The notes beneath the pieces were generated by a model. The model did not search any database. It saw only the letters and a program-made list of their open reading frames with translations, and was not told the DNA's origin. From a virus: a DNA stretch of 20,859 bases. The stretch is taken from the IMG/VR virus record IMGVR_UViG_3300017768_002424, positions 1 to 20,859 of that record; one strand, given 5' to 3'. Of the stretch, positions 937 to 20,024 are shown piece by piece; within the stretch, counting starts at the first letter, position 1; every line of letters begins with the position of its first letter. The position numbers were made by a program, and so were the translations under genes.

Positions 937-952
937 CTGCGTTTAAACGCAG
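937..952. repeat. 16-bp perfect palindrome centred on GTTTAAAC
   Basis: CTGCGTTTAAACGCAG is its own reverse complement. It lies in the spacer between the genes ending at 912 and starting at 1021. It is the longest extension of the GTTTAAAC octamer, which occurs 13 times in the window. No T-run follows, so it is not an intrinsic terminator; a protein-binding site is more likely. Confidence 0.7.
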
Positions 953-958
953 TATGTC

Positions 959-980: not shown

Positions 981-1020
981 CTGACGAGGCAGTCAGCAAC
1001 ACACAGTAAGGAGAAACATA

Positions 1021-1305: not shown

Positions 1306-1319
1306 CCACAACACACACT

Positions 1320-1327
1320 GTTTAAAC
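1320..1327. repeat. GTTTAAAC octamer, intergenic copy (13 copies in window)
   Basis: All copies start at 941, 1320, 2494, 3073, 3917, 5663, 7908, 9036, 10979, 11011, 13776, 15777 and 18575. Only this one and 941 are intergenic. The coding copies read Phe-Lys (TTT AAA) seven times and Leu-Asn (TTA AAC) four times. Chance expectation at equal base frequencies is about 0.3 per 20.9 kb. Confidence 0.85.
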
Positions 1328-1328
1328 G

Positions 1329-1352: not shown

Positions 1353-1354
1353 AT

Positions 1355-2340: not shown

Positions 2341-2380
2341 GTTATGAATAACTTTCACCATTGATGAACAGAAAACACTA

Positions 2381-2424
2381 TACCCAATTTAAAAAATGGT
2401 GTGATAGTATCACACCGTTGGGTA
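2381..2424. repeat. Nested inverted repeats in a 149-nt intergenic leader
   Basis: An outer pair, TACCCAA (2381-2387) and TTGGGTA (2418-2424), encloses a 19-bp inner dyad, GGTGTGATA-G-TATCACACC (2398-2416). In RNA this forms a two-part stem with an asymmetric 10-nt bulge. It lies between the stop at 2340 and the ATG at 2490, followed by an AC-rich element (2435-2450). No T-run follows, so it is probably regulatory rather than a terminator. Confidence 0.65.
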
Positions 2425-2489
2425 TGCGCTTTAAAACTCCACACACAGTAGACCCTTCGGTATTTTTTAAATATAAGAAGGGAAATGTA

Positions 2490-3017
2490 ATGCGTTTAAA
2501 CACTTTTATTATCACACATCACGTCGGGGAGTTAGAGGACTTTGACTTCTATGATGGCATGGAGCGTGACTGCTCCCGTGTCGCACGGCACATCGGTACG
2601 TACTCGACTTCAGTTGACAAAGTTTACTCAGTTTGGCGGTGTGAATGTGAACTAGATTTTTTTAGGGACTGGCTGTCGAAGAACCACAAGCGAAGAACGT
2701 CGCTTAACTTAAAGTATGATGTGCATCAAGCAGAACAGGCACTCGTTAAAAAGCCAGCCGCTTTAACTGAAGGTTATTTACCAGTCGAACATATACAACA
2801 TGACCTGCAGTCTACTAATCGCATCTGGTCTGTTGTCGATGAATACCCAGATGTCTCAATTATATTTAACAATCTACAAGTTTACTTTGCCTACGATGAA
2901 ACGAAAAAACTTATCGACGCACTGCAGAAATTGGTATCAGCCAGAGAAACTGGCGAACTTACTGAAGATACAGCGTATAGTTATAAACCATACGATCCAT
3001 ATAGGCCTGCCACCTAG
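2490..3017 (+). CDS. Hypothetical protein, 175 aa
   Basis: The frame is open from 2361, but I chose ATG 2490. It has a purine-rich ribosome-binding site (AGAAGGG, 2476-2482) at good spacing, while the earlier TTG/ATG (2361/2364) have none. The region between also holds the nested inverted repeats and the AC-rich leader copy typical of untranslated DNA here. The product begins MRLNTFIITHHVGELEDFDF and is soluble and mixed alpha/beta, with WRCECELDFFRDWLSKNHKRR near the middle. No family recognised. It ends 4 nt inside the convergent minus-strand gene at 3014. If 2364 is the true start the protein is 217 aa. Confidence 0.55.
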   Translation: MRLNTFIITHHVGELEDFDFYDGMERDCSRVARHIGTYSTSVDKVYSVWRCECELDFFRDWLSKNHKRRTSLNLKYDVHQAEQALVKKPAALTEGYLPVEHIQHDLQSTNRIWSVVDEYPDVSIIFNNLQVYFAYDETKKLIDALQKLVSARETGELTEDTAYSYKPYDPYRPAT

Positions 3018-3217
3018 AAGAGACAGCCGTCGTTCTCATCTCCTACGGGAGCGGCGGCTGTTTTCCACCACTGTTTAAACACCTCGCCATTCTTTGCTTC
3101 ATAGCACTGCATACACACTTGCTTTTTGTTGGCGAGTATAAGGTATTCAATACCGACCTCGCTTTTTTCTAGGGATTTTTCACAGATCACACATGAAAAA
3201 GGTGACGAAGTATGCAT
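3014..3217 (-). CDS. Small putative zinc-binding protein, 67 aa
   Basis: Two CxxC pairs, C9-V-I-C12 and C35-M-Q-C38, could bind one zinc ion as a zinc ribbon or knuckle. The C-terminal half is short and includes a Trp pair (FKQWWK). The start codon at 3217 follows AAGGTGACGAGGG, a good but structured ribosome-binding site: the site and the start codon lie in a 10-bp hairpin (3199-3230) that also looks like a terminator for the primase operon upstream. Its 3' end overlaps the plus-strand terminator at 3023-3064. It could act in replication or host control, but only the zinc motif is visible. Confidence 0.55.
   Translation of the reverse strand: MHTSSPFSCVICEKSLEKSEVGIEYLILANKKQVCMQCYEAKNGEVFKQWWKTAAAPVGDENDGCLF
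3023..3064 (+). terminator. Probable terminator with UACG tetraloop hairpin
   Basis: Outer arms ACAGCCGTCG (3023-3032) and CGGCGGCTGT (3052-3061) pair with one G-U wobble. The inner stem CTCC/GGAG closes a TACG tetraloop (3044-3047), the very stable UNCG type. TTTT follows at 3061-3064. It lies just after the plus-strand stop at 3017. A 7-nt unpaired stretch interrupts the left arm, so strength is uncertain. Confidence 0.6.
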
Positions 3218-3290: not shown

Positions 3291-5006
3291 TTATACATCA
3301 CATGGCACCTGATAGCAACCCGTTGCCATAGAGTAGCGCAGGTCACAACTTGCCGGACTACCCGTAGTTTTGAACCGCACCTTACGAAAGTGAACCTCGA
3401 CATCAGCTGGGCTAACCGTTGGATTGCGGTGTATACATGTCAGCACGTCTGCCTTGGTAAAGAAATGCACGGATCCGAGGATATCCATTCCCGTTGGCGC
3501 TGGCACAGAACCATCTGCTGACCGCAACATCTTTGATGGGTGGGCAACCAGCCAAACATGGACACCATGTCTTTGTGCAAAGTTCCTCAGTTTACTCAGG
3601 GTCTCGCTAACATATTCCGTTTCAGTCTGCCCCTGCCTTGATTGCAGGACATAGTTCCACGGGTCAATTGTCAGTGTCTTGATGCCGAATCGTAATACGG
3701 CTGCGCGTGCGTGCCTCAAGATTGCATCGACTGTTGGCGGCGTATCATCAGACAACCTGATAAACGTCACATGCTTGTCTATAAAATCGACAGCTTCGTG
3801 TAACTGTTCCTCTGTAATCTTGACGCCTTCATGTCCAACAAAGGATGCACCCGCAAACTTTTCTGACAGGCTTGCAAGGTGTTGATCGGGTGGGTTCTCA
3901 AATGAGCATACAGCATGTTTAAACAGTTCAGACTTGCTGGTGTTAATGATCAGCTGGTCTATCCAGTTTGACTTGCCCGATCCCGGTATGCCTGTGACGA
4001 TTTCGAGTTCTCCCGTCTGGATCGTGTAAAACTTATCGATGTTCTCGTAGCCAGTCGAGACACCCCTCGACCTACCTTCCCTGTATAACTGCAGAACTGC
4101 ATCCCGATGTTCATCGGCTGACTGCAGTCCCTTCACGGGGTATGCCGTCGCACTGCTGATGAGCAGATCAACTTCATCACTGCTGTATTTAACCAGCACG
4201 TCGGATAGATCCTTACACCCGTCAGGGTAGGTGTCGATGTATGAGCAACGGTCACGACCATAAACGTCTGCTAATTTTTCCCGCAAGCTAATGCCTGCCT
4301 TGTCACCGTCTGTAGCAATAATAATCGTCGGCGTTGGATCGAAGCGCTCCAGCGTATTAGCAATGAACTCACGCTTAAACGGATCGTCGCCTGCTAGTGC
4401 CGCACCGTTGGGCACACTGATGACATTTGCATGACCTGATTCATGGGATGCGTGGGCATCCCCCTCACCTTCCACAATGATGACGGGCCTTGTGAAGTCG
4501 ATGCTGTCTAAATTGTAGTAGCACTTCCCGCCGCCTTTGGATTGCAGGTATTGACCACCCTCACGCTCTTGTAAAAACTTTGTCTTGGTGTGTTGGAGTT
4601 CCCCGTCTAGATAATACGGAAACACAACTGCATTGTTGGATGAACCGATTTTAAAATGTGCAATGGTTTCATCCGATAGCTCACGGCTATACAGATATTG
4701 CAGTGCGGGTTCATTAACTTCCGCAGGTGTTTGAACAGCTGGCTTGGTGGGTGCAGATGGTGTCCCTGCTGGACTCAATAGACCCCTGCCGATCAGCGCA
4801 TACATGACATCCGATTGGTTACAGCCGCCGTGACAATGCCAGACCAGCTTGCCATCACGGTTACCAATTGTGAGTGATGGGTTCTTATCGTTGTGTTTAT
4901 GGTTGGCTGAAACAGGACAGCTGGTTTTATATTCGCTTTGCCCAACCTGCGTAGCGCGAGGGTTTAAGGCAAAAGCAATTGACTTCGCGTCGTCAGGATT
5001 TTGCAT
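3291..5006 (-). CDS. DNA primase-helicase, T7 gp4/Twinkle type
   Basis: This bifunctional replication enzyme should synthesise primers and unwind DNA at the phage fork. The N-terminus has a CHC2-type zinc site (C30, H36, C58, C62 in HCHGGC). A TOPRIM domain follows, with E179 (VIIVEGEGDAH) and D233/D235 (IIIATDGDKAG), the metal-binding residues of primases. The C-terminal RecA-fold helicase has Walker A GIPGSGKS (339-346), a Walker B-like KTLTIDPW (D448) and a LVAHPSK motif (487-492). At 571 aa it is full length for the family (T7 gp4 is 566). The ATG overlaps the upstream gene by 14 nt and has only a weak ribosome-binding site, so coupling is likely. Function is confident; primer template preference cannot be read here. 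Confidence 0.95.
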   Translation of the reverse strand: MQNPDDAKSIAFALNPRATQVGQSEYKTSCPVSANHKHNDKNPSLTIGNRDGKLVWHCHGGCNQSDVMYALIGRGLLSPAGTPSAPTKPAVQTPAEVNEPALQYLYSRELSDETIAHFKIGSSNNAVVFPYYLDGELQHTKTKFLQEREGGQYLQSKGGGKCYYNLDSIDFTRPVIIVEGEGDAHASHESGHANVISVPNGAALAGDDPFKREFIANTLERFDPTPTIIIATDGDKAGISLREKLADVYGRDRCSYIDTYPDGCKDLSDVLVKYSSDEVDLLISSATAYPVKGLQSADEHRDAVLQLYREGRSRGVSTGYENIDKFYTIQTGELEIVTGIPGSGKSNWIDQLIINTSKSELFKHAVCSFENPPDQHLASLSEKFAGASFVGHEGVKITEEQLHEAVDFIDKHVTFIRLSDDTPPTVDAILRHARAAVLRFGIKTLTIDPWNYVLQSRQGQTETEYVSETLSKLRNFAQRHGVHVWLVAHPSKMLRSADGSVPAPTGMDILGSVHFFTKADVLTCIHRNPTVSPADVEVHFRKVRFKTTGSPASCDLRYSMATGCYQVPCDV

Positions 5007-5235: not shown

Positions 5236-5523
5236 TTACTTTAACTCCCTCACGATGTCAGCCATCGTTGGGATGGTTGGTGCTTTCTCAAAGTCCTGCC
5301 AACGCTCCTGATTTAAAAACGTGACAGCCTGCGCGACGTACTTGCGGTCCCTGACATAGGCATCGCAGTACTGCTTGTATGCGACAGCGCCTTCTATGAT
5401 TTCTTCTTTGTTGATCCCGCGCTTGACTTGTTTGATGAACGCTTTTTTTGCTGGCGCTTTGGGATTTTGATGCGGGGTTCTTTTGGGGTAGGATTGCCAG
5501 AACTTTTCGAAACTCTCACACAT
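5236..5523 (-). CDS. Phage replication-associated protein, 95 aa (loader-like C-terminal motif)
   Basis: The pattern FEKFWQSYPKR (residues 5-15), KKAFIKQVK, then AQAVTFLNQERWQDF (about 64-78) matches a module I know from the C-termini of many phage replication or helicase-loader proteins: FW-x-x-YP-(K/R) near the start and a TFLN-x-x-x-W signature near the end. Here the module stands alone. The ATG at 5523 follows GGAGG (5533-5537 in plus coordinates) at good spacing. It is followed directly by the 80-aa gene and then the primase-helicase. Its N-terminal codons overlap, out of frame, the last 130 nt of the VRR-NUC ORF. A role in primosome assembly is inferred. Confidence 0.7.
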   Translation of the reverse strand: MCESFEKFWQSYPKRTPHQNPKAPAKKAFIKQVKRGINKEEIIEGAVAYKQYCDAYVRDRKYVAQAVTFLNQERWQDFEKAPTIPTMADIVRELK

Positions 5524-6029
5524 TGGGTGCCTCCATTGGTGTTTGCAAATTTAGTTTGTAGCGTTCTCACTACACTAGATTTTTTATAGAGGCTAGTATT
5601 TTTTTTAATTATTTGTATGCACTCATCGTATGACCAAGCGACAAAATAATTTACATGAGACTGTTTAAACCACTCCTGCATAGCCAGTTGATTATCGGAC
5701 AGCCTGCCCTTCGCCGCCTTTACTTCTATAGCTATTGTTTTATTGGCACCGATGAACACATAGTCTGGTGCCCCTGCGGCTAGTCCCATAGCACGCATGA
5801 TCTTTCCAAGACGCATAGACCGCCTGCCCTCGTTTGGAATATGAAACCAGACACAACGTAAGCGACCAGCTTTTGTCTCGTTCCTGCACCAGTTTGCAAA
5901 GTCTATACATATCTGTGATTCAGGTCCGATACCCTTACCTGTCACATGTTGTTGTGTAATCCAGCTTGGTTCTGTATCAGTCAACTTGTTCGCAGTACTT
6001 AAACATATAGTCGTAAAGGTAGGCACCAC
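5394..6029 (-). CDS. VRR-NUC domain nuclease
   Basis: The core motif GAPDYVFIGANKTIAIEVKA (G-x-PD...E-x-K), followed by GRLSDNQLAMQEWF, matches the VRR-NUC branch of the PD-(D/E)XK fold, found in phage nucleases and related to Holliday-junction-cutting enzymes. It probably cuts branched or recombination DNA. The start is unsettled: GTG 6029 has no ribosome-binding site, and TTG 5984 would overlap the upstream stop by 8 nt. The recognisable domain ends near IQIIKKN. The final ~60 residues are Lys/Ser-rich and overlap the next gene out of frame by 130 nt, and an operator-like dyad (5557-5574) lies in this tail. The tail may be nonfunctional readthrough or a DNA-binding extension. Confidence 0.8.
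   Translation of the reverse strand: MVPTFTTICLSTANKLTDTEPSWITQQHVTGKGIGPESQICIDFANWCRNETKAGRLRCVWFHIPNEGRRSMRLGKIMRAMGLAAGAPDYVFIGANKTIAIEVKAAKGRLSDNQLAMQEWFKQSHVNYFVAWSYDECIQIIKKNTSLYKKSSVVRTLQTKFANTNGGTQCVRVSKSSGNPTPKEPRIKIPKRQQKKRSSNKSSAGSTKKKS
5557..5574. promoter_or_regulatory. Operator-like dyad O1 (TGTAG-N8-CTACA)
   Basis: TGTAG CGTTCTCA CTACA is a perfect 5-bp dyad with an 8-bp centre, matching the sites at 6857, 9465 and 9531. It lies 34-51 nt upstream of the minus-strand ATG at 5523, so it may control the gene set leading to the primase-helicase. On the minus strand the flank reads CTACAAACTA, as at the integrase site. I see no clean -35/-10 pair beside it. Confidence 0.55.
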
Positions 6030-6892: not shown

Positions 6893-7720
6893 ATGAACAA
6901 ATTTATTTTACCACACACGTCTGCTTCAGACAGTAACCTGATGCATGACAACCCGTTTGCGTGGCGGTGGAAGCACGCAGAACATTGGGGCAGGATGCCC
7001 TACCAAACTAAAATCACACCAGTCCTACCCAGAGGTAACGCCGTTGAACATGGCGGTGATCAGATCCTATTGCATCAGGCAAGTGTCGAAGATGCCAGTG
7101 ATGCGGCACAAAACGATTTCCTTGTGCGCGTCGAGAAAGATAAAGCTGATGACCTCAATGAAGAAGAGGCAATCCAGTACAACGACATCCCTGCCTACAT
7201 AGCCCAGCTACACCGTGCTTTACACAGTGACGACTTCAAGGAACTGGGTCTTGGTAAGTTCATATCACGGCAGGGTTTTCATAAAGAGATAATACCGACG
7301 CAGGCTGGCGAGATGGAATTTGTTGGATACAGCGACTGGACTTTTGAAAAAGGCACAGTGGACCTCAAATCGACAACCGCTATCCCCGGAGTTATGCGTG
7401 ACAGCCACGCTTTTCAGCTGGGGTTTTATGCAGATATGACAGGACTGGACCAGTACTGCCTGTACTGCAAGCCAGTCGGTGCGCTGACACCCACGGGTAA
7501 AGTCAGCAAGGCTGTCGGCTTTGCCTTCAGGAAACTCAACAAGACACAACAGGAATTTGTACGCAGTGAGCGCATCGCAAGGGCGAAGCACATGGCGGCA
7601 ATGTATAGCCTATCATGGGAGCAGGCACAGTACCTGACTATGCCCCGTGACATAGGCGGCTTCCGTTGGGATGACGGATTACGTGAACTAGCAAATAAGG
7701 AGTGGGGTATATTGAAATGA
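6893..7720 (+). CDS. PD-(D/E)XK exonuclease (RecB/Cas4-like) for recombination
   Basis: It likely resects double-stranded ends to make single strands for the ERF annealing protein encoded next. Visible RecB-family motifs are RGNAVEHGG with H53 (motif I), E132 (HKEIIP), D148 (GYSDW), DLK with D157 and K159 (TVDLKST), and QLGFY (175-179), the Q-x-x-x-Y motif of Cas4/RecB-like nucleases. There is no four-Cys iron-sulphur cluster as in true Cas4. AGAAGG lies 8 nt before the ATG within an AC-rich leader. Its TGA overlaps the ERF ATG by 4 nt. Length (275 aa) is normal for phage recombination exonucleases. Confidence 0.85.
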   Translation: MNKFILPHTSASDSNLMHDNPFAWRWKHAEHWGRMPYQTKITPVLPRGNAVEHGGDQILLHQASVEDASDAAQNDFLVRVEKDKADDLNEEEAIQYNDIPAYIAQLHRALHSDDFKELGLGKFISRQGFHKEIIPTQAGEMEFVGYSDWTFEKGTVDLKSTTAIPGVMRDSHAFQLGFYADMTGLDQYCLYCKPVGALTPTGKVSKAVGFAFRKLNKTQQEFVRSERIARAKHMAAMYSLSWEQAQYLTMPRDIGGFRWDDGLRELANKEWGILK

Positions 7721-8235
7721 CAGATGAAACTCAGGATGTAGTAGAAAAATTTCCATCCATTGTACGGCATGGACCAGCCAATCAAATCGCCAATGCACTC
7801 GTACAGTGTTGCGGTGATCTCGTTGAGCCAGTCAAGCATGGCGTAGGTAACTTCCGAAACACTTACGTGACGTTGCCAACGATCTTAGAACTGCTTCGCC
7901 CCGTGTTGTTTAAACATGGTCTCACTGTGCAGCAATACCCATCGGGTGATGGCTCATCACTAGTCACAAGTGTCATGCACAAATCAGGCGAGGCATTTAC
8001 ATGTACATATCCCTTGGCATTACCAGCCACTGTATCTAAAGGCGGCAGGCCAAACTGGGATTTGCAATCCACCATCAGCTATGCAAGGCGCTACGCTTTG
8101 ATGATGGTGTTTCAGCTGGCGGGAGATGAAGAAGATGAACCTGCTGGTCAGGTGGGTAGTGGTGAACATCACCCACCAACAACCCCTGCGTTAGGTGATG
8201 CTGGTAGATCAGCGGATCCGAATGCACCATTTTAA
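7717..8235 (+). CDS. erf: ERF-family single-strand annealing protein
   Basis: ERF proteins anneal complementary single strands in phage recombination and circularisation. The family pattern is clear: LLRPVLFKHGLTVQQYP (about 59-75), a SGEAFTCTYPL strand (90-100), and the signature STISYARRYALMMVFQLAGD (118-137) followed by acidic residues. I chose ATG 7717 over GTG 7702 because 7717 overlaps the exonuclease stop (ATGA) while 7702 is directly against its ribosome-binding site. The C-terminus is a flexible Gly/Pro linker ending DPNAPF, which recalls the acidic-hydrophobic tips of SSB proteins. Length, 172 aa, is short for ERF (P22 Erf is about 204). Confidence 0.85.
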   Translation: MTDETQDVVEKFPSIVRHGPANQIANALVQCCGDLVEPVKHGVGNFRNTYVTLPTILELLRPVLFKHGLTVQQYPSGDGSSLVTSVMHKSGEAFTCTYPLALPATVSKGGRPNWDLQSTISYARRYALMMVFQLAGDEEDEPAGQVGSGEHHPPTTPALGDAGRSADPNAPF

Positions 8236-8640: not shown

Positions 8641-8861
8641 TGGCATTCGAAGTTCAAGCAAAAGTACTAACCCCCAAGGATGTCGCACATATCCTTGGGG
8701 TCTCGGAGGGAACCTTGCGCAACTGGAGACAGCGAGGCAAGGGTCCACCGTATATGAAGATTGATCCTACAAGTAACCACGCAAGGCCACGCTACGAACT
8801 CACGATGCTGGTTGCGTGGATGAAGGAGTCGGGCCTTGGCGACAAGTTCGAAATCCTTTGA
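8640..8861 (+). CDS. AlpA/excisionase-like helix-turn-helix protein
   Basis: A winged HTH of the MerR/HTH_17 kind is clear: LTPKDVAHILGVSEGTLRNW (residues 10-29), then RQRGKGPPYMKI, the usual wing with G-(P/L)-P-Y. C-terminal residues (RPRYELTMLVAWMKES) complete the fold. Such proteins act as phage excisionases or as small activators. At 73 aa and two genes before the integrase, an Xis role is plausible. The start is GTG 8640, overlapping the upstream stop; no strong ribosome-binding site is visible, so coupling is likely. Whether it bends att DNA or regulates transcription cannot be read from sequence. Confidence 0.75.
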   Translation: MAFEVQAKVLTPKDVAHILGVSEGTLRNWRQRGKGPPYMKIDPTSNHARPRYELTMLVAWMKESGLGDKFEIL

Positions 8862-9405
8862 GCATCACGACTACAAGATCACCACCGTCATATTAAATAC
8901 AAGAGAGCTAGCCTTTGCTAGACACATTGCTGATAGACGCAATGACAAGGCAGAAGGTGTGAGATCGGCTAGAATTGCAACCAATAGAACTGACTTCAGC
9001 ATCCATCAACAGGGTGCTGAAGCGGAGATCGCTGTGTTTAAACAGCTTAACTGGCCTGTCGATATATCCGTTAACAAGCATGGCGGTGACGATGGTATCG
9101 ATGGGTACTGCGGGAACCATAGCGTGCAAGTTAAATCATCGCGGCACTGCCCACCTTCTATGATATTTAATTATGCAGGAGACTTTCGAGCAGACGTTGC
9201 TATTGCCTGTCTGGTTAGACCAAAAGGACATATCGATATCTATGGGTATATCACCCGTCAAAGGTTTATGGGTATGTTTGTCGTGCGGGATTATGGTTAC
9301 GGGACTCGGCTGGTCGTCGAACCCAAACACCTGAAGCCATTTAGCGACCTGAATACAGGCGTTGACAAAATGGCAACAATAACTTTCCGTTCGGAAACCC
9401 CTTGA
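8836..9405 (+). CDS. PD-(D/E)XK-like nuclease or nuclease-derived protein, TTG start
   Basis: The fold pattern is a helix with E62/E64 (QQGAEAEIAVFKQL), then GGDDGIDG (D86, D89) and VQVKSS (Q98-V-K100). This gives E...D...Q-x-K, a variant of the PD-(D/E)XK active site with Gln in place of Glu. The rest (DIYGYITRQRF, GTRLVVEPKHL) looks like strands around the core. The best start is TTG 8836, with AAGGAG at 8823-8828 spaced 7 nt; it overlaps the HTH gene by 26 nt. It could be a phage restriction-like or resolvase-type enzyme. Gln-x-Lys variants exist in active members, so activity is possible but unproven. Confidence 0.6.
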   Translation: MATSSKSFEHHDYKITTVILNTRELAFARHIADRRNDKAEGVRSARIATNRTDFSIHQQGAEAEIAVFKQLNWPVDISVNKHGGDDGIDGYCGNHSVQVKSSRHCPPSMIFNYAGDFRADVAIACLVRPKGHIDIYGYITRQRFMGMFVVRDYGYGTRLVVEPKHLKPFSDLNTGVDKMATITFRSETP

Positions 9406-9594: not shown

Positions 9595-10917
9595 GTGACA
9601 AAACTAATACACACAGGAAATTTAAGCGTAAGAAATTTACAGCGCGAGTACAAAAAATTAATGTCCGTTTCACCCAAGAAAAAGTCTAGATGCATTGTCT
9701 GGGATAAATCAATACCCGGTCTCGGTGTGAGGATATTAAATCCAAGCGGTACGATGACCGCAATATACAGATCACGGCAGTATGAAAATAATGGTACATC
9801 AAATTCTGTTGAGAAAATGATATGCAGAGTATCTATGACGACAGAGTCTTTACAGCAGGCAATTGACATAGCCGCATCATTGTATGAGAAGCGTGCCGTA
9901 GGCTACGATACAACCCGTGTTCTAAAACTCCCTTCTACCGTGGAAGAGTTTTACAGAGATATTTACTTTATGGAGCATAGGGATAAATGTCTCGACGGTA
10001 GTCAAAAGGCACCTAAATCAATTCAACGTGATGGGCAGATTGCTAACAAGTTAATTGAACACGTTGGTTGGATGGACCTCAAAGACCCTGAAATCTACGA
10101 CGCTTTTATTAGGTGGAGACATGAGGTTGTTGAAGCAGGTACAGGCTATCAGACAATGAAGAAAGCGGCACAGTTAATGCGCAGGTTATTTCGTATGGGT
10201 ATACGCCGTGGCGTATGTTCCCATGATTTTCTTTCTGACTTCAAGATACCTAATCATCAGCCTCGCAACATGCACGTACCACCTGAAGAAGTCGCGGCAA
10301 TATATAAAGCCTGCCTACAATATAAAGCTACAGGTGGTAGAAAATGGACACGCATTGCAGACATGTTCATTTTAAAAATACTCCTTGGCACTCGCAGTGG
10401 GGAGATGGTTGATCTCAGGAAGAGCGAAGTTGATCTAGATAAGGCTGTTATCATTATGGATCCATCACGCACAAAGACACGCAAGAGTTACAGGTTCAAG
10501 CTAACTAAAATGGCTGTTGATTTATTGCGTAACACAGAAGCAATGTCTGAACCTAATAATCCATTGATGTTTGGCATCAAGGGGAATTCATGCACCGCAT
10601 ATCTTATGGAGTGGCACCGCATCCTTGACATCACGGGGTTATACAACACACTTCCAGAAGGCACATGGGAGCAACAAACGCCTGCCGAACGCATATTCAC
10701 AAGCGAGGTAAAGGCAAAACGCCCAAGACCCCACGATCTTAGACATGCGTTTATTACCAATGCACGGGAAGCAGGCATCAGCCGCGAAGACGTAGCACTT
10801 GCCGCCCAGCACAGTAATACAAACACAACCGAACTGTATGAGCATGTGACTGACGAAATAAAATCAAAGGTTATTTCTGCGCGTGAAGCATCACTGGTTA
10901 CTGCACTTAATCAGTAG
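9595..10917 (+). CDS. int: Tyrosine-recombinase integrase
   Basis: It should catalyse site-specific integration into, and with an excisionase excision from, the host chromosome. The N-terminal part (SIPGLGVRILNPSG, about 39-52) matches the arm-binding domain of P4-type integrases, a core-binding helical domain follows (about 113-215), and the catalytic domain shows R267 (LLGTRSGE), a K near 294, H380-x-x-R383 (PHDLRHAF), H406 (AAQHSNT) and the nucleophile Y415 (TTELYEHV). All key residues are present, so it should be active. The start is GTG 9595, with GGAG 9 nt upstream. Length, 440 aa, is normal. It ends by overlapping the lysozyme tail by 11 nt. Confidence 0.95.
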   Translation: MTKLIHTGNLSVRNLQREYKKLMSVSPKKKSRCIVWDKSIPGLGVRILNPSGTMTAIYRSRQYENNGTSNSVEKMICRVSMTTESLQQAIDIAASLYEKRAVGYDTTRVLKLPSTVEEFYRDIYFMEHRDKCLDGSQKAPKSIQRDGQIANKLIEHVGWMDLKDPEIYDAFIRWRHEVVEAGTGYQTMKKAAQLMRRLFRMGIRRGVCSHDFLSDFKIPNHQPRNMHVPPEEVAAIYKACLQYKATGGRKWTRIADMFILKILLGTRSGEMVDLRKSEVDLDKAVIIMDPSRTKTRKSYRFKLTKMAVDLLRNTEAMSEPNNPLMFGIKGNSCTAYLMEWHRILDITGLYNTLPEGTWEQQTPAERIFTSEVKAKRPRPHDLRHAFITNAREAGISREDVALAAQHSNTNTTELYEHVTDEIKSKVISAREASLVTALNQ

Positions 10918-11374
10918 GAGTGTTAGAGGCGGCGCTTGCAAAGAGTGTCGCCTCATCCCTACGTCGGGATACCAAACCGTTTAAACGAACCCCTCGGCAA
11001 TACACCCAGCGTTTAAACTCTTTCTTTGCACCCTCAAAATTAGAACGATTTATCTTTCTTCTGAGAGTAGAACTCCTGAAGGCATTGCTGCCAAGGTTGT
11101 AGCAGAACGAAATACACGCGCCGTATTGGTTAGGGTTTAGCTCTACCTTCAACATACCATCAAGCCTGCGTTCAAATGCACGTAGCTCTTTTCTTAGTAG
11201 TGCTTCAGCCTCATCCTTTGTGATGGTGTCACTGTCCATTACCAGCCGCCTGCCACTCATATCGCGGGTACTACCATAGCCCCACGTAACTACGCCAGCA
11301 CTGCAGTGGTATTTCGCAGACCGGAAACCTTCCCAGAATTTTATGAGGTCAGTGGCTTCTTGATTTGTTTGCAT
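10907..11374 (-). CDS. GH24 lysozyme (endolysin)
   Basis: It cleaves the glycan strands of peptidoglycan for host lysis. The T4/lambdoid GH24 catalytic pattern E-8aa-(D/C)-5aa-T is present as E15 (FWEGFR), C24 and T30 (VVTWGYGST). Cys replaces Asp, as in P1 Lyz. Downstream FCYNLG (90-95) and RRRDEATLF (137-145) are typical for the family. There is no signal peptide or SAR segment, so it needs a holin or equivalent to reach the wall. Length, 155 aa, is normal. The start at 11374 overlaps the MscS-like gene by 26 nt; its ribosome-binding site is weak. Convergent with the integrase. Confidence 0.93.
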   Translation of the reverse strand: MQTNQEATDLIKFWEGFRSAKYHCSAGVVTWGYGSTRDMSGRRLVMDSDTITKDEAEALLRKELRAFERRLDGMLKVELNPNQYGACISFCYNLGSNAFRSSTLRRKINRSNFEGAKKEFKRWVYCRGVRLNGLVSRRRDEATLFASAASNTPTD

Positions 11375-11892: not shown

Positions 11893-12351
11893 CTATGCTG
11901 ATTTACTTTTTTGAAAATGCCTTGCACCAAACCAGAATGAAATCACACAACTAAGCATGGCTTGATCGTACTCTGTGTAAATAATAGCGGCAGCTTCAAC
12001 GAGTAACCCGCCATCAATTACTGTGAAGGCCCACAACTGCACAGCTTTGCATGACATATAGAGCAAGAGGAGAAGATACGATATGATAGGGCGCACGGAA
12101 GCACGTAGGGTGCCCACCCAGCCAGTGTCTTTGAGAGACTGATCGTGCTTATATATGCTTTTAGTTTCTTGAATATCGGCATGTGCTTCTATCTCCGTTA
12201 ATTTTAATTCTGATTGAACCTTCGCCGCATCGATATTGAGTGCGTGCATTTCCTTTTCGTGTTTCCTGTCCTGCCACTCATCGAACATATCAAACACCCG
12301 TGGCAAGGCTGACGTTCCAAATCCAATGAGAGACCCAATAATTGTAAGCAT
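11893..12351 (-). CDS. Putative 3-TM holin (GTA-holin-like)
   Basis: Three hydrophobic stretches are visible: residues 2-18 (LTIIGSLIGFGTSALP), about 88-110 (RPIISYLLLLLYMSCKAVQLW) and about 127-146 (EYDQAMLSCVISFWFGARHF). Between the first two lies a long charged helix (KHEKEMHALNIDAAKVQSEL onward), likely a coiled coil. This layout, with the Arg-Pro before the second TM, fits the 3-TM holins of the gene-transfer-agent type. It would open or depolarise the inner membrane to release the lysozyme. ATG 12351 overlaps the stop of the giant gene (TGATG) and AGGAG lies 9 nt upstream. Family call by pattern only. Confidence 0.7.
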   Translation of the reverse strand: MLTIIGSLIGFGTSALPRVFDMFDEWQDRKHEKEMHALNIDAAKVQSELKLTEIEAHADIQETKSIYKHDQSLKDTGWVGTLRASVRPIISYLLLLLYMSCKAVQLWAFTVIDGGLLVEAAAIIYTEYDQAMLSCVISFWFGARHFQKSKSA

Positions 12352-15300
12352 CAGTTTGCTCCTGCTCTTTGTTCTTTTCCGTACTGCGACAGGAAGTTCT
12401 TAGATATGTGGGCACGCAACTGATCAATTCGACGCAACTGCTTCAGTCGTTCGCCTTTCTTTTCTTCTGGGTAAGCCGCATTGTATATTGCACGACGGTC
12501 CTTGTTCAGCTGATTGAGATCCTTTTTAAGTTTCTGTGCGCGTGAAACAAACTGCGCATCCAACCCACGTTCAGCCAGCATCCCTGTTATGATCCCACCG
12601 GGATCTGTTTTGTTGTTCTTCTCGATATTTTTTATTGCTTTATCTAGCGACAGTATTTCCTTGTTGATTAGGAGCCGTGCCCTTTTTTCGTAGCTACTAT
12701 ATCGCGGAAATTCTGGTGGGTTGAACCTGCCTACGGTTATTTGCCCTAAAGCCGTGTCTTTAAATTCCATCGGAGCAGGTGGTAACCCATTTACCTGCCT
12801 ATAATACACGTCTGCCAGCGACATGACAACATTACCAATCTTCGGTGCCCAGCTATCGAGCGCATTCTGTATACGTTGTGCGGCGAAGTTTGTCTCACGC
12901 GCAAGCGCAAGCGTTACCTCATTCGCCCGTGGGTCTGCTATCCCAGCACCCTCGTCAGCCGTTCCCTTTAGCGGCAGTGAATACGGTGGTATTATATCCC
13001 TGTCCCTAAACGTGTCCTTGTTTATTACATCCTGTATAATGCCCTTTCCTATAGGGCCAGCAATCTCATAAGGATTTATTTTAAAAATATTCACAACGCC
13101 GAACATCAACGAGTCCATGAAATCACTACCCGCATTTTCAGCACCCCTAGCCGCCGCAAGCAGACGCTCTGGGATTGTCATGCCTACGAATCCTGCCTCG
13201 AATGGCTTGGGTATCGCTATGTGTGGATTGTCTATGATGCCGTCTAACGCACCATCAGGAAAAAATTTATCGAGATAGATGTGCATGTATAGATCCCTAG
13301 ATTCCTGCGGCAACGCTTGGTAGCGTTCATCATCTTCGTTTATTGCATAGAGCGCAGTGGCAAAGCCTGCCATGACACCCATCGTCGCATAGAAGTTTAG
13401 TCTGTTTTTGTTATTAGATAGAGGTGATCCAGCGCGTGCTAATCGATACGCACCCTGTGCCCTTGCGTTGATGAACGGCACTGTTGTGATGAGGTACTCA
13501 ACAATCTTGAACGCGCCTTTGTCAGCCTTGCCACGCAACGAAAAGTCCAGTACCTCACGCGCACGGAACCCCGACTCTTCTTTTGTGAACCCCTGCTTTC
13601 TGGATGCCTGATAGACTGCAAGGCGGTTAGCATTTTCTGTCGCTTCCGACACACGATCTACCAAGGCCCACGCATTCTTTGCAGTTACAATCAATGGGTT
13701 ACTGCTATCTCCTGTGGCTTTAGCGTAACGTCGCAACGCACTGCTTCGATGGTAGCCACCGATAGGTGTGCCACCGTTTAAACGTATCTCCCGTAGCAGG
13801 TCAGGATTAGTGAACGACTGTCCCACACCCTTGATCGCGTTGGTTATAGGTTCGTAGCCACTGTACAAAGCGCGGGTACTGAGTGTGTCACGTACCAAGT
13901 TTGCCTGCAGGAAGTCTGGCATCTTGGTAATCATCTGTGAGAACGCGTTGCGCTGAAAGTTCATAAACCGCATGAACATGTTAAGATTTCGCGTTGGTAC
14001 GTGGGCAAGTGCATTAAACAAATCTACATCCTCGACCTTGTAGAATGTTTCGGTTGTGTCTTCAGACATACCACGCACAGTAACCACGTTTTCATCACGC
14101 ATCTTAGGCTCGAAAACAAATACATCGTATAGTCCTTCGAGTGCGTCGATGTCTGTCTGCTCTTCGAGGATAGCGATGTCTTCGCCAAGCACCTGCTCTA
14201 ATGTCTTTTTAATTTCATTAACCGTGGTCTTCTTGCGCACCACCTTGCTACGTTTGGTTTCTGTCATCGCAGGGTTAGCTGTGTCTGGACCTATCTCGTT
14301 GACGATGGCACGCATGGCATGGTTGCGCATCGTCTTGGTAATCAGTGCTTCTGCATTGCGCACCATGTTGGGCACGATGCCATTCAGTTTATATGCACCA
14401 CCCTTTAGTCTGCGGGATGGATCCCCAACACGACCAACACCGCCACTGGTTGGACCTATCGGTGTTGCCGACAGTGTCGCTTCGTCGCCCTGCATCAACC
14501 TGTAGAACGGTAGGTAGTCACCGAAACGCTTCCAGCTTTCCGCTTGGTTCTGCGTTAGGTATTTACCATCAACTGCAAACTGCAGCAGGTCATTGTTGAA
14601 ATCCACATACTGCTGACGCGCTACCTCAAACTCTGGGTAGAGCCTGCCAAGATCGAGCAGGTCTATAATCTCCATAGGTGTAAGGAGTTTCTCCCTGCCT
14701 TCTGCTTGTAGTCTGCGTGCCCTGTACGCGTACATATACGCACCCCATAGATGCATCCCAACATCACCGTGCATCTTGGCGATAGGCTCTATAATTTTGA
14801 CAAGACCGGGCTTGCGGATGATGTTGCCATCTGCGTCACGGTATTCTTCCCTGCCCTGTTCTGTAAATTTAGGGACACCGTTGACCAAGGATTCCGCAAC
14901 CATGTCAGCTGTATCATGTGCCACTCTAGCAAGCTGGTAACCACGTTCAGCGCCAGCGCGTGCAATCGCCATGTACGGATCAAGCGTCTGCGCTAGGATC
15001 TCCTGCCTGTTGCTGACCGTGTTGACGATCAAGTCACGTATCGCGCCATAGAAAGAACCAACGGTAGACACTGACCTGTCGGATATCTTATCCGCTGTAG
15101 CCTGCTGATTTTCTGTGAGCTTGGAAAACTGTAGGTCTGTTTTTTCTGCGCTGAACAGTGTGTCTTGGTTGAAAATACCGGGTTCCCGTTCAGCACTCCT
15201 GAAGTAGGTTATGTTGGCGTAGATCACAGGTCGTTCAGATTGCATAGCCTCAACTATCCTATGATTGCCTTCAACTATGACAGCAAACCCATCATTCCTA

Positions 15301-18300
15301 AATTGTTTAGGGCGAACGTATATTATAGGGTTGTCTTGAGGATTCTCTGATGGGTTATAACCCTCTCTTGCTATACTTTCTTTTAAGCGACGTAATTTAC
15401 TACCTTCCGTGTCTTTGTTTCTGTACGAGTGTTCACCGTTCATGCCGGGAATGTACATAAGTTCCACTGGATCAAACGGTACGTTGAACGCCTCGGCTGT
15501 TGGTCCGGTTTGAGGTCCGAAATAAAATATATTACCAAGCTCACGCTCTTCGCGTATCTTTTGATTAGCATCTTCGTTAAAGAGATCTATCTGATCTTGA
15601 TATTCTGGTTCGCCGTTTTCTTTAAATCCAAATTTTGCCCCACTTATTAATTCTTGCGCACGCCAAAGTAAACTAACCTTACGACCCTCACGCATCTGCG
15701 AGGCGGTGTTAGTTAACTTACTGTATACAATGTTGTCGGGTTCTTTGGGCCTGCCTTTTTCATCAAAGCTGGCTACGTTTAAACTCTTTAGGCTGAGACC
15801 TAATCTTTGTTGCGCAGTTCCTCTTGGCGCTGGATAAGCCAAGCCTTGTGCCACTCTGGCAGATGCGAGGGTATTTCCAATTGGTTCGCCGCCAACTGTT
15901 GGTCCAGCCGCTCCCTCCGACGTTGCCCCTGCAGAAGTTTGTATTCCCCTAGCAAGCCTTCTGCCTCTAGACGTTCGCTGTCGCTCTTGTACGGATGGTT
16001 CTGCTCCGCTTCGCTTCGACTTTGCGGGTTGTCGAAAGTCATTTTTGTAGGCTTCGACGAATTCTCTTGCACCATCTGAAAATACCTCAAGTTCTGTGTT
16101 GTAACCCAGTGAATTCCACAGGTCTTTCTCGTAGAACCATAGCACAGCCTGCAAGTTTCTACTATCTAAATCTACACCTGTTTCGTTTGAAACATCGTCT
16201 GCTACTTCACGCAACAATCGTTTGATTTGTTCGTGATCTTTTACATCTGGACCTGACCTTGCGTCATCAATCGTATCATCAAACAGCCTGCCAAGATGAC
16301 GGTACACAGAACGTGATGCCCAGCTGTCTACTGTCTCATCGTGCATACCGTTAAGGTTTGTGAAGAACGGTCCTATCTTTTTGCCAAACATATACGCACC
16401 ACGACGCATACTGTTTATGCCAAGTCCTGTTAGACCAGACTTGATACCGTGTCTGGCACGCATCTCGTTGAGATCCCTGACCCCGTGGTCCTCAAGCATC
16501 CAGTCTGTCACCCTTGCGAATGACGGATAGTTAGATCCGGGGAAGTCAAACTGAGGATCGTTCAACATGCCGTTAACCATGTTGAGTTGTCCTGCTACAA
16601 TCTTACCTCGCTGCCCCCACTGTTCTGTAGACAGCGGATTGGTCACCGTAAGTTTACCAGTACGCAACCACTCAGCGAATATCATAGAAGCGTTGAAGAG
16701 GTTTGCCTTTGCCTTGGTGCCGTTCGATGTGATTGCGGCAATGACTGTAAACATTCTGCGATAGTCATCACCAAACGCTGGATCATTCAAGACTGGGAAT
16801 GTTTCTGACAAAGTTTCGAATACTAACTTAATGTCGTCGTCATACCACCCTAATCCAGATTGATCCTGTCCAAGCTGGTGAACAACTTCAGGTACCATCG
16901 AGCGTTTGACATCCTCAAAGACTGCTTCGTCATTGAGATCACGGCGACGATATCTGTTTCTAAATGCTCGTACCAAGGCACGGTTATAATTATCAAACGC
17001 CTTTGCGATATCGGATGCTAATACTGTACCTGTTTCCTGCAAACGTTGACTGATGCCGCGCTCACGGTTCTCGCGTATTTGTACACTGCTTGTGCCACTG
17101 GCTTCGTATAGTTCAGCTGTCGGTTCTTGTACGTTAACCAGCTTACTAAATACTATGTCGCCGCCTTCAACTTCAGACAGCCGTTTTCGCAATGCGAAAA
17201 TCTCATCAGAATTAAAATTGTTTACAAACTTTTGCGGATTAATCTCGTCGGCAATACTCACAACAACGTCGCGTGGAACAGTAAACTGATCAGCGAGAGT
17301 TTGAAACAAATCGGTTTGTGGTGTCTCGGTAGGTGTGGGTGCAGGAGCGGCTATAGTTGGCGCGAATACACCCTCCGATATTATTCGTGTGCCAAAATGT
17401 ACGTTTGATCCATCCTGCGAAACCACAGTTTCAGGATCAAATATTTCAAGTGGCGTTAGACCAGCTTCTGGTTTTACTGATATGTCAATGCTTGTGCCGG
17501 GAACTGGATCCCCCTTCTTTCTGATCTTGCCATAGTCCTCGGTATATACCAGTCTGCCCCGCTTGTTTTTTCTGCTTGGCATACGCTCGAACTTCACAGG
17601 CATTTCAGGGTTCTGCAACAACCCACCTATTTCTTTAACGGAAACATCATCTATAAACACTGTGTCTATGGAGCGTGGTTGTTCCCCACCTAGGCTTGGG
17701 TCTTCGTCTTCCGACAACGCACGATTGCGTATGGTTGTGCCATCTTTGAACTGTTTGTAGGTTGAGCCTCTTGACGTTTGGAATTCTGCCACAACCTCCC
17801 CTGACTGAGCGGGATCTGCTGGTGCAGGCTCTGCCGCTACTGGCTCTGTTGGTGCAGGCTCTGCTACTAGCTCGGCTGTTACAGGTTCAACCGCAACCCG
17901 TGAGCCTTCTTCCAATGTAGACCACTGCACGCGCTCACCTGTCGGTGTCTTACCCGCATACAGTCGTTCTCGTTTGCCACCAATCTCTTTGTCAGTGACA
18001 CTTGTTACTTCTACTTCGTTAGTAGTGAACTCACTGTCGCTACTTTCCGCTGTTGGCTTGGATGACAGGGTAACCGTTTCACCTACTTCGTATCGCTGTG
18101 TTGCGGGTGCTGGCTGAACAGCCGCTGCTTCACGTATTGGTGTAGTCGGCGGCGCTTCCGGCGTAGGATCTGCAATAGGAACAACGGGTGTCTCAGGCTG
18201 GGGTGCCTGTGCTTTTGTTTTTCGTTTTCGTTTTTCTGCTGGGACAAGGCTCTGTAACCTTTCTGTCAAGTTACCGTCGATAACGAAGTTCAACGCATCA

Positions 18301-20024
18301 AACTGCGTCTTGAACTCGTTGCCACTTAGCTTGTTAACAATCCTGCCAACGGTGTTAGCGGCAGACTCAAATGCTTTTCTTAATATGCCCTGCGGTTTTT
18401 GACCGGGCAGTATGTTTCGTCGTCGTGCTTCTTCATAAGCCTGCAGTGAATACGCCATGAGTTCCTGCGTAGTCATCTCCACGCCTTGGAGCTTACCGTC
18501 AAACTCGTTTACTATTTCATCACCAAGTAATCGCCTGACACCACTGGATAGTCCAGACTTAAAAGTGTTAGACCGTTTAAACGCCCCGACAAATGCTCGA
18601 TGCGCTTTAGGATCGAGCTTCTGCAACATGGTATCCCAGTGATGGAACGTCTCATGGTATAGCGTTGACAGTGGGTATTCCGTTGGGTCTATATTTATCT
18701 CGCCCGTCTGGACATTGTATGATCCTGCACCACCGCCCTGTATTCCCTGCGGTGTGAACTTTATAACGGGGTCTAGCTTGCCTGCGTTCTTACCTTTGTT
18801 AGTTTCGGCAATGACACCCAATCCAGCCATGTGTATGCGTGCCTGCGTCGGGGTAAAGATATAGTTACCGTCTGCATCTTTTTCTTTAAGCTGGCTTGCG
18901 GCTTCAGCGAGGCGTGGGCGCTCTAGCGCATTGAAGTTGTCTATTGCAGAATCAAAAAGCGTTGGTCCCTTGACTGCTGTGCCCTCATCATCCAATACGG
19001 GTTCGCGTATGTCTGGTATTTCCAGATCGTCTGGTATTCGTAATGCTTGAGCTTCTTCTTCCTGACGTGCCTGCCTGCCCCGCACAGCTGTGGACACAGT
19101 TGAGGTTGCGCTACCCACCGTACCACCAACCAGAAAACCGCCAGCGAGACTGTTGACCAATCGCTCCTGCACTTCTTCAAGCGGTATCGGTTTCCCCGTA
19201 GCCAGTGCTTCCGCTGACATTTTGACACCTTCTTGAGCGCTTTCAGTTACACCCTCAACGGCGGCTAACTTCAAGGCATCCTTGGTAATGCGTCGTATTG
19301 CACTTTTCTTTATGGATTCTTTGAGTGGTGATTTAATAATGTCGGTTATAATTTTAAGTGCTGGCACTGAATCCAGCGCACCCATGATACCACCTGCACC
19401 TAACCCAAATTGCTGGGCATCATCCTTGCTCACGCCTTCTTCTAGTAATGTCTTGTATACATCGCCAGCATTGATAGCTGTAGATGTCAGCCAGCCCGTA
19501 CCAGCTACAAGAGCAGTTGTTGCCAGACCGGGAACTGTAACTGGTGCTAACGCGATAGTACCAGCCACTGCACCAGCGGTTCCAAAGACTGCACCCAACG
19601 ATGGTATTGCACTACCTAGCGTGGAAAGCGCCCAGTCAGCGGCATCATCGAGCGAATCTACTTTATAGATAGAGCCTACTCTTGGCGGTTCATACTGTTC
19701 GGCTTCTGCTGTTTGTTCCAGCCTACCTTCTTTGAAATATTCTTCTGCATCTTCAAAGCCAAGCTGTCCAGAAAGTGATTCAGCGGTGCCAAATAAACCA
19801 GCCTGCAGTTCATCTGTGCCCCGTGCCAAACCCCTACCGAATTCACCCATCTGTTCGGGTGGTTCTACCGGGTCTACTGGTTGTGCTGTTTGTTCTACAA
19901 CTGGTTGTGCTGGTGGAGTGTCTTGGAAAAAGTCTTTTTTCAAAAGACGTTCTATTTCCTGTGGTGGCATACCATCTGGGAAGGATAAAATCCCTACACC
20001 TTGAACATCAATTAACTGGGCCAT
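12351..20024 (-). CDS. Giant polyvalent virion protein, 2557 aa, with HExxH, ParB-like and LPD38-like regions
   Basis: This is probably an internal virion protein injected with the DNA. By residue: a disordered acidic/proline start (1-60); a hydrophobic, Gly/Ala-rich region (137-187) that may insert into membrane; YHETFHHWD with HExxH at 457-461 and a possible third ligand E521, a zinc-metallopeptidase motif like those of phage polyvalent proteins; Pro/Ala/Glu linkers (600-640, 705-745); a helical domain (about 1000-1300) with GWYDDDIK and FFTNLNGMHDETVDSW; a ParB-like VEGNHRIVEA (1585-1594); and a C-terminal region (about 2010-2200) matching LPD38-type sequences (PDFLQANLVRDT, PFINARAQGAY). 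A coiled coil ends it. The start follows the upstream stop by 3 nt. Substrates are unknown. Confidence 0.85.
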   Translation of the reverse strand: MAQLIDVQGVGILSFPDGMPPQEIERLLKKDFFQDTPPAQPVVEQTAQPVDPVEPPEQMGEFGRGLARGTDELQAGLFGTAESLSGQLGFEDAEEYFKEGRLEQTAEAEQYEPPRVGSIYKVDSLDDAADWALSTLGSAIPSLGAVFGTAGAVAGTIALAPVTVPGLATTALVAGTGWLTSTAINAGDVYKTLLEEGVSKDDAQQFGLGAGGIMGALDSVPALKIITDIIKSPLKESIKKSAIRRITKDALKLAAVEGVTESAQEGVKMSAEALATGKPIPLEEVQERLVNSLAGGFLVGGTVGSATSTVSTAVRGRQARQEEEAQALRIPDDLEIPDIREPVLDDEGTAVKGPTLFDSAIDNFNALERPRLAEAASQLKEKDADGNYIFTPTQARIHMAGLGVIAETNKGKNAGKLDPVIKFTPQGIQGGGAGSYNVQTGEINIDPTEYPLSTLYHETFHHWDTMLQKLDPKAHRAFVGAFKRSNTFKSGLSSGVRRLLGDEIVNEFDGKLQGVEMTTQELMAYSLQAYEEARRRNILPGQKPQGILRKAFESAANTVGRIVNKLSGNEFKTQFDALNFVIDGNLTERLQSLVPAEKRKRKTKAQAPQPETPVVPIADPTPEAPPTTPIREAAAVQPAPATQRYEVGETVTLSSKPTAESSDSEFTTNEVEVTSVTDKEIGGKRERLYAGKTPTGERVQWSTLEEGSRVAVEPVTAELVAEPAPTEPVAAEPAPADPAQSGEVVAEFQTSRGSTYKQFKDGTTIRNRALSEDEDPSLGGEQPRSIDTVFIDDVSVKEIGGLLQNPEMPVKFERMPSRKNKRGRLVYTEDYGKIRKKGDPVPGTSIDISVKPEAGLTPLEIFDPETVVSQDGSNVHFGTRIISEGVFAPTIAAPAPTPTETPQTDLFQTLADQFTVPRDVVVSIADEINPQKFVNNFNSDEIFALRKRLSEVEGGDIVFSKLVNVQEPTAELYEASGTSSVQIRENRERGISQRLQETGTVLASDIAKAFDNYNRALVRAFRNRYRRRDLNDEAVFEDVKRSMVPEVVHQLGQDQSGLGWYDDDIKLVFETLSETFPVLNDPAFGDDYRRMFTVIAAITSNGTKAKANLFNASMIFAEWLRTGKLTVTNPLSTEQWGQRGKIVAGQLNMVNGMLNDPQFDFPGSNYPSFARVTDWMLEDHGVRDLNEMRARHGIKSGLTGLGINSMRRGAYMFGKKIGPFFTNLNGMHDETVDSWASRSVYRHLGRLFDDTIDDARSGPDVKDHEQIKRLLREVADDVSNETGVDLDSRNLQAVLWFYEKDLWNSLGYNTELEVFSDGAREFVEAYKNDFRQPAKSKRSGAEPSVQERQRTSRGRRLARGIQTSAGATSEGAAGPTVGGEPIGNTLASARVAQGLAYPAPRGTAQQRLGLSLKSLNVASFDEKGRPKEPDNIVYSKLTNTASQMREGRKVSLLWRAQELISGAKFGFKENGEPEYQDQIDLFNEDANQKIREERELGNIFYFGPQTGPTAEAFNVPFDPVELMYIPGMNGEHSYRNKDTEGSKLRRLKESIAREGYNPSENPQDNPIIYVRPKQFRNDGFAVIVEGNHRIVEAMQSERPVIYANITYFRSAEREPGIFNQDTLFSAEKTDLQFSKLTENQQATADKISDRSVSTVGSFYGAIRDLIVNTVSNRQEILAQTLDPYMAIARAGAERGYQLARVAHDTADMVAESLVNGVPKFTEQGREEYRDADGNIIRKPGLVKIIEPIAKMHGDVGMHLWGAYMYAYRARRLQAEGREKLLTPMEIIDLLDLGRLYPEFEVARQQYVDFNNDLLQFAVDGKYLTQNQAESWKRFGDYLPFYRLMQGDEATLSATPIGPTSGGVGRVGDPSRRLKGGAYKLNGIVPNMVRNAEALITKTMRNHAMRAIVNEIGPDTANPAMTETKRSKVVRKKTTVNEIKKTLEQVLGEDIAILEEQTDIDALEGLYDVFVFEPKMRDENVVTVRGMSEDTTETFYKVEDVDLFNALAHVPTRNLNMFMRFMNFQRNAFSQMITKMPDFLQANLVRDTLSTRALYSGYEPITNAIKGVGQSFTNPDLLREIRLNGGTPIGGYHRSSALRRYAKATGDSSNPLIVTAKNAWALVDRVSEATENANRLAVYQASRKQGFTKEESGFRAREVLDFSLRGKADKGAFKIVEYLITTVPFINARAQGAYRLARAGSPLSNNKNRLNFYATMGVMAGFATALYAINEDDERYQALPQESRDLYMHIYLDKFFPDGALDGIIDNPHIAIPKPFEAGFVGMTIPERLLAAARGAENAGSDFMDSLMFGVVNIFKINPYEIAGPIGKGIIQDVINKDTFRDRDIIPPYSLPLKGTADEGAGIADPRANEVTLALARETNFAAQRIQNALDSWAPKIGNVVMSLADVYYRQVNGLPPAPMEFKDTALGQITVGRFNPPEFPRYSSYEKRARLLINKEILSLDKAIKNIEKNNKTDPGGIITGMLAERGLDAQFVSRAQKLKKDLNQLNKDRRAIYNAAYPEEKKGERLKQLRRIDQLRAHISKNFLSQYGKEQRAGAN

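Follow-up and report, generated by a model that had tools for sequence, protein, structure and literature searches.

A palindromic octamer dispersed through phage genomes and its association with the zinc ribbon of SprT-like proteins

Introduction

The stoperators of mycobacteriophage L5 are asymmetric, intergenic, and oriented with transcription, number about 30, are bound by the helix-turn-helix (HTH) repressor gp71, which silences transcription, and are limited to related phages. The parS sites bound by ParB are 16 bp long and form few clustered copies. The DNA-dependent metalloprotease SprT/Spartan (SPRTN) is not known to recognize any particular DNA sequence. The octamer HIP1 of cyanobacteria (GCGATCGC) is a dispersed, highly iterated palindrome located in both genes and spacers; it resides on the chromosome, and DNA methyltransferases are associated with it (PMC4390886). 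Here, we describe the palindromic octamer GTTTAAAC, which is over-represented in a 20,859-nucleotide stretch of phage DNA (positions 1 to 20,859 of IMG/VR virus record IMGVR_UViG_3300017768_002424), hereafter called the window. Computational comparison demonstrates that the enrichment is specific to the octamer, confined to phages, and linked in both directions to a zinc ribbon encoded by unrelated phages.

The octamer GTTTAAAC resembles HIP1 in its dispersal, iteration, and palindromic form. Unlike HIP1, it is confined to phages, crosses host phyla, is not enriched in cellular genomes, and accompanies a zinc-ribbon/SprT protein. The original prediction, made for the window, compared the two octamers; the likeness in style stands, but HIP1 goes with methyltransferases (PMC4390886). 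The L5 stoperators are similar in that many dispersed sites correspond to one phage-encoded protein, which binds DNA in L5 and putatively here; however, GTTTAAAC is a perfect palindrome, mostly intragenic, and identical in unrelated phages that encode the ribbon protein. ParB/parS systems likewise have palindromic sites on phage DNA, but neither the GTTTAAAC site nor the ribbon protein matches them. None of HIP1, the stoperators, and parS agrees with the octamer in all defining features. The protein of the window phage resembles SPRTN in matching the Pfam SprT-like family, and the HExxH motif is present in most members; in contrast to SPRTN, the C-terminal ribbon of the phage proteins tracks the octamer, and the phages richest in octamers encode a degenerate protease part or none at all. 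No relevant paper on the octamer in phage genomes or on its link to SprT was found in the open PMC literature (subscription journals and preprints were outside the scope), and the paper describing phage R5C mentions neither SprT nor the octamer.

Results and discussion

Enrichment of the octamer in the window

The window contains 13 copies of GTTTAAAC (Table 1), whereas 100 dinucleotide-preserving shuffles have a mean of 0.37 and a maximum of 2. The resulting enrichment of about 35-fold is close to the originally predicted value of about 40-fold over approximately 0.3 expected copies, and all 13 predicted positions were confirmed. No octamer of the window is commoner than GTTTAAAC, and the palindromic octamers that rank next reach 3 copies. 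There are 24 TTTAAA hexamers, 13 of which are within GTTTAAAC and 11 outside it, and the 24 single-mismatch variants of the octamer together reach 3 copies. The scarcity of the variants indicates that the octamer itself, rather than its TTTAAA core, is under selection; the original prediction had likewise singled out the octamer as the enriched unit. A Markov model of maximal order fitted to the window predicts 7.6 copies, which is uninformative because the model was trained on the 13 copies themselves. The anticipated occurrence in both genes and spacers, and in two reading frames, is also borne out: ten copies are genic, in the Leu-Asn or Phe-Lys frame, and three are intergenic. The third frame would contain a TAA stop. 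The flanks follow a Y-octamer-R pattern in 23 of the 26 half-sites, and the spacing of the sites has a coefficient of variation (CV) of 0.60 (p 0.055 for evenness versus random).

Distribution of the octamer among phages and cells

Two IMG/VR contigs (L005 and L006), which are 99.6-99.9% identical to the window over about 6 kb, extend it past base 1 and contain 14 copies in 12.7-12.9 kb. A scan of IMG/VR for two copies of GTTTAAAC 10-40 bp apart identified at least 120 contigs, and many of the matches listed contain 10-40 copies per 10 kb, with about 0.1-0.5 expected per locus. The carriers of the dispersed octamer are phages of cyanobacteria, of alpha-, beta-, and gammaproteobacteria, and, according to gene content, of freshwater actinobacteria. 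At least 11 enriched genomic backgrounds have fewer than two other proteins in common. The octamer-rich contig groups that share few genes include, among others, a group with a WhiB-like protein, which are probably freshwater actinophages, a group with its own terminase, and the group with the primase of the window. A lack of enrichment in relatives had been named beforehand as grounds for discarding the prediction; both the relatives and many unrelated phages are enriched.

A scan for three copies in 85,000 bacterial and archaeal species revealed, among the matches listed, local clusters only. The counts of GTTTAAAC and of the reversed-pattern control CAAATTTG in eight whole cellular genomes picked for a local cluster are 67/67, 22/38, 102/97, 124/115, 12/134, 131/242, 12/73, and 89/67. 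The octamer counts of 12-131 are at or below the control in five of these genomes and at most about a third above it in the other three. Octamer enrichment is a property of phages, not cells, and the host factor considered in the original prediction is not supported by the cellular genomes, which are without clear excess over the control.

Many gut Firmicutes (Lachnospiraceae loci L131, L135, L146, L180, and others) have a single spot at which three GTTTAAAC fall within about 75 bp; this local cluster probably represents a repeat array that has nothing to do with the phage system.

Two-way association of the octamer with a zinc ribbon

The protein family that spans the octamer-rich contig groups consists of SprT/Spartan-like metalloproteases whose C-terminus is a zinc ribbon (KQxTR...C...R...CPxC). 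The gene of the window phage is located about 3.8 kb beyond the window edge (L005:10054-10758, minus strand of the locus). All 80 viral loci fetched solely by SprT homology, using an alignment of seven SprT-type proteins from enriched contigs, are enriched, with 934 octamers versus 15.7 expected and 11 copies of CAAATTTG. As the query itself came from enriched contigs, a further set was retrieved using an actinophage-type protein chosen from non-enriched phages. Close relatives of the actinophage-type query (at least 65% identity, GC 63-73%) have no octamers, with few exceptions, whereas most relatives with 44-57% identity are enriched (14 versus 0.21 expected in L466 and 20 versus 0.45 in L476). 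The record L458, with 66% identity to the query and a GC fraction of 0.67, has 6 octamers versus 0.07 expected. Distant SprT relatives were sought with alignment subsets, the whole alignment A1 being without a conserved stretch. In the SprT tree, most non-enriched rows fall within a clade of GC-rich actinophages, and the enriched rows are spread over the remainder.

The association extends to the ribbon itself. The 182 records whose ribbon includes Q[GSTP]TR contain 1417 octamers versus 31.4 expected, and 133 of them are enriched. The nine records with a full-length C-terminus but no QxTR contain no octamers, which is only suggestive because the expected sum is about 0.9. Ribbons lacking KQxTR accompany zero copies in CN2, Epa43, Dismas, Armstrong, L455, L477, L488, L500, and L504; in CN2 and Epa43, the protease part is present and the cysteine ribbon absent. 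All 23 contigs fetched with a 55-residue stand-alone ribbon are enriched (402 octamers versus 7.2 expected; 4 copies of CAAATTTG).

In the opposite direction, an octamer cluster (three copies within about 130 bp) was the sole criterion for choosing 23 records, each 28 kb or longer. Seventeen of them encode the ribbon (E 1e-10 to 1e-25), and all of these have 21-49 copies, whereas the six without it have 4-12; the probability of so clean a split is 1/100,947 (Fisher's test). Within the terminase lineage of Burkholderia phage Mica, phages with sprT have 4-8 sites each (38 in 257 kb) and those without it 0-2 (6 in 162 kb; p 2.6e-4).

Isolate phages encoding the SprT-ribbon protein were found by tblastn. 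The whole-record counts of GTTTAAAC are 34 in the 38.6 kb of Methylophilales phage Venkman (L432), 17 in Dinoroseobacter phage R5C, 16 in Pseudanabaena phage Pan1, 8 in Acinetobacter phage Alexa, and 7 each in Mica and Enterobacter phage Arya, with 0-1 copies of the reversed control. According to an order-2 Markov model, GTTTAAAC is the top palindromic octamer in all six isolates, which represent five host groups (for example, 16 versus 0.02 expected in Pan1 and 17 versus 0.04 in R5C). Only one protein family, SprT, is represented in all six (open reading frames (ORFs) of at least 60 residues, blastp E<1e-4). The next component, in four of the six, appears to be the antisense frame of the sprT gene, and is followed by families of three related phages. 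The E. coli laboratory phage HeidiAbel_Bas97, whose SprT-like protein comprises both the protease and the ribbon, has 6 sites.

Structure of the SprT-like protein

The SprT-like protein of the window phage matches Pfam SprT-like PF10263 above the cut-off (E 4.1e-8), and 23 of the 43 family members match it at E<=0.1. Its predicted structure has a pLDDT of 88.5. The best PDB match found by Foldseek, 6mdx_A ('Mechanism of protease dependent DPC repair', a DNA-protein-crosslink protease), has a probability of 0.90 but an E-value of only 7e-3 and a TM-score of 0.27-0.32. The HExxH zinc-protease motif, VHELVHA in L005, is nearly invariant in alignment A3 and present in most members. It has been lost, with the ribbon retained, in L012, L045, L076, and L094, and is absent from the stand-alone ribbons of about 55 residues in L043, L047, and L092. 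These three contigs are among the densest, the copies numbering 42 (19.8 kb), 19 (6.9 kb), and 25 (21.4 kb), respectively. The invariant positions of the ribbon are Q, TR, C, R, and P.

Putative recognition of the octamer by the ribbon

The association of ribbon and octamer, together with the extended consensus shared by all groups and the site ahead of sprT in the Mica/Arya lineage, suggests that GTTTAAAC, within the extended form YGTTTAAACR, is likely a genome-wide recognition site of the zinc ribbon, a putative DNA-binding domain encoded by the phages. Usually, the C-terminus of the SprT/Spartan-like metalloprotease consists of this domain; in the densest freshwater actinophages, the protease part beside it is degenerate, or the domain makes up an independent protein of about 55 residues. 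Contact with the DNA would be made by the ribbon itself, probably with two subunits arranged symmetrically on the palindrome. Of the options in the original prediction, which ranged from binding to methylation, a phage DNA-organizing protein encoded outside the window is best supported, and the ribbon gene is the candidate for it; the host factor and methylation are not supported.

Several observations weigh against recognition by the ribbon. Some ribbons lack the full set of four cysteines, and the model of the ribbon is of moderate confidence and without a significant PDB match. Phages PPpW-3, FoX1, and FoX3, which lack SprT, retain 2 copies each. The GC-rich actinophage clade (Arthrobacter/Microbacterium type, more than 30 records) keeps KQ[GST]TR with 0-2 octamers, and no replacement palindrome dominates there; L475 and L501/L503 likewise keep the motif with 0-2 octamers. 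The absence of octamers from the GC-rich actinophages is weak evidence, because the expected counts are low; the clade may have shed its sites, may have shifted its specificity, or may require only a few. Finally, the 80 loci have 9 sites within 100 bp upstream of sprT versus about 7.7 expected, so that such placement is not general.

More speculatively, many occupied and spaced sites might mark or organize the phage genome, with the ribbon protein acting as a phage nucleoid-like protein. An intact protease tethered in this way to phage DNA could clear proteins that are bound or crosslinked there. It is also conceivable, and put forward as tentatively, that the zinc-ribbon protein, with or without the Spartan-type protease, and the octamer, evolved by the dozens in each acquiring genome, constitute a transferable phage system, which would provide a self-mark or nucleoid across host phyla and a tethered protease for stripping host proteins. 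Should the ribbon indeed read the octamer, the SprT-like phage gene, which is widely annotated (frequently as transcription elongation protein SprT) yet functionally uncharacterized, would gain a target on DNA, a mechanism open to testing, and a signature recognizable from genome sequence alone. Unrelated phages of several bacterial phyla would then have scattered the same site, serving a single small domain, through their genomes, and there would be a reason for the presence of Spartan-like proteases in phages.

Alternative palindromes were considered as targets of other ribbons and rejected: none dominates in the GC-rich actinophages, and the iterated site of Arthrobacter phage Emotion (L247) is parS-like. 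Emotion contains seven copies of this palindrome, GTTTCACGTGAAAC (0.0 expected), and, immediately upstream of sprT, two genes whose annotation is DNA-binding protein; together, these look like a phage ParB/parS partition or regulatory system. Microbacterium phage Zeta1847 (L378-L380) has six copies of the palindrome TACACGTGTA, and Caron (L248/L377) four copies of CTTGCGCAAG. The contig L509, which encodes a diverged ribbon, contains 8 copies of ATGATCAT versus 0.39 expected, possibly a changed ribbon target.

Placement of the sites and alternative explanations

The extended consensus YGTTTAAACR holds in every phage group; R is present at position +1 in 84% of 777 distinct sites (0.40 bits), and there is little information further out. 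It is possible, although we consider it rather unlikely, that the sites are operators or stoperators and the ribbon protein a global transcription regulator with many sites, like the L5-type repressor of mycobacteriophages; this explanation concerns function and is compatible with recognition by the ribbon. It is favored by the 44% of 751 sites that are positioned outside ORFs, which cover 84% of the DNA, about twice the expectation after allowing for the forbidden frame; by the spacing of sites in the dense actinophages, where no adjacent pairs are closer than 37 bp versus about 37 expected and gaps of 38-67 bp are preferred, as if neighboring complexes exclude one another; by one site about 13-25 bp upstream of the sprT start in all six phages of the Mica/Arya lineage; and by octamers in terminator-like loops and at gene junctions. 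However, more than half of the 751 sites are intragenic, the density reaches about 3-4 per kb, and the spacing is often evener than random (Pan1, CV 0.49, p 0.002; L012, p<0.001). The sites of Venkman, L524, and L529 are concentrated in one region.

Three further properties of the sites were considered and set aside. Autoregulation from upstream of sprT applies to the Mica/Arya lineage but not to the 80-locus set, helical phasing of paired sites is weak, and a role as a promoter or start-codon element finds only a mild rise of ATG directly after the site. In Venkman (L432; for example, 2154-2161, 2375-2382, 2611-2618, and 9009-9016), adjoining genes often meet at the octamer in the form GTT TAA AC ATG, where it supplies the stop of one gene and directly precedes the start of the next. 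Octamers occupy the loops of terminator-like hairpins in L270:16915-16973, L300:18303-18373, and L287:17194-17260.

It is improbable that the octamer is bound by another co-inherited phage protein, too diverged or small to be detected, upon which the SprT-ribbon protein acts, for example by removing it. Metalloproteases acting on repressors are known, such as ImmA on ImmR, and blast-level family sharing can miss very diverged small HTH proteins. Nevertheless, the highest octamer densities go with protease-free, stand-alone ribbons, and, SprT aside, every family is limited to at most three of the six isolates. One octamer-rich group (L099:321-701 and 19 related contigs) commonly encodes a short protein that has a LexA-type DNA-binding domain but lacks a peptidase domain; it was rejected as a reader of the octamer, being confined to that one contig group.

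The octamer, which is also the target of PmeI/MssI, is very unlikely to be a methylation or restriction mark of the kind suggested for HIP1. HIP sequences accompany cognate methyltransferases (PMC4390886), and one DNA methyltransferase is annotated in Venkman. However, N6_N4_Mtase or D12 methyltransferases were found in none of the six enriched isolates (other methyltransferase families were not searched), and blastp family sharing revealed no methyltransferase family common to the six.

The least credible explanation, that the phages inherited the octamer from their hosts as a genome property or mutational bias, was rejected: phages often adopt the oligonucleotide usage of their hosts, but the hosts span several classes, the eight cellular genomes are near or below the reversed control, the genome-collection matches listed are local clusters, and phages without the ribbon are not strongly enriched.

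Gene content of the window

Table 1. Positions of GTTTAAAC and of the shared arm in the window
Feature	Position	Strand	Context
GTTTAAAC copy 1	941..948	no strand	intergenic
GTTTAAAC copy 2	1320..1327	no strand	intergenic, directly ahead of GC-rich inverted repeat
GTTTAAAC copy 3	2494..2501	no strand	within ORF 2361-3017 (+), Leu-Asn frame
GTTTAAAC copy 4	3073..3080	no strand	intergenic
GTTTAAAC copy 5	3917..3924	no strand	within primase-helicase gene 3291-5006 (-), Phe-Lys frame
GTTTAAAC copy 6	5663..5670	no strand	within VRR-NUC nuclease gene 5394-6029 (-), Phe-Lys frame
GTTTAAAC copy 7	7908..7915	no strand	within ERF annealing-protein gene 7702-8235 (+), Phe-Lys frame
GTTTAAAC copy 8	9036..9043	no strand	within ORF 8836-9405 (+), Phe-Lys frame
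GTTTAAAC copy 9	10979..10986	no strand	within lysozyme gene 10907-11374 (-), Leu-Asn frame
GTTTAAAC copy 10	11011..11018	no strand	within lysozyme gene, Phe-Lys frame; 32 bp from copy 9
GTTTAAAC copy 11	13776..13783	no strand	within 2557-aa ORF 12351-20024 (-), Leu-Asn frame
GTTTAAAC copy 12	15777..15784	no strand	within 2557-aa ORF 12351-20024 (-), Leu-Asn frame
GTTTAAAC copy 13	18575..18582	no strand	within 2557-aa ORF 12351-20024 (-), Phe-Lys frame
Left arm of window, common to L005/L006	1..6206	+	99.6-99.9% identity

The window is a fragment of a marine phage with an integrase, the presence of which indicates that the phage is probably temperate. No relatives of the integrase that could indicate the host were found. 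The ORF of 2557 residues occupies over a third of the window and, according to its size and place, possibly encodes a virion or polyvalent protein.

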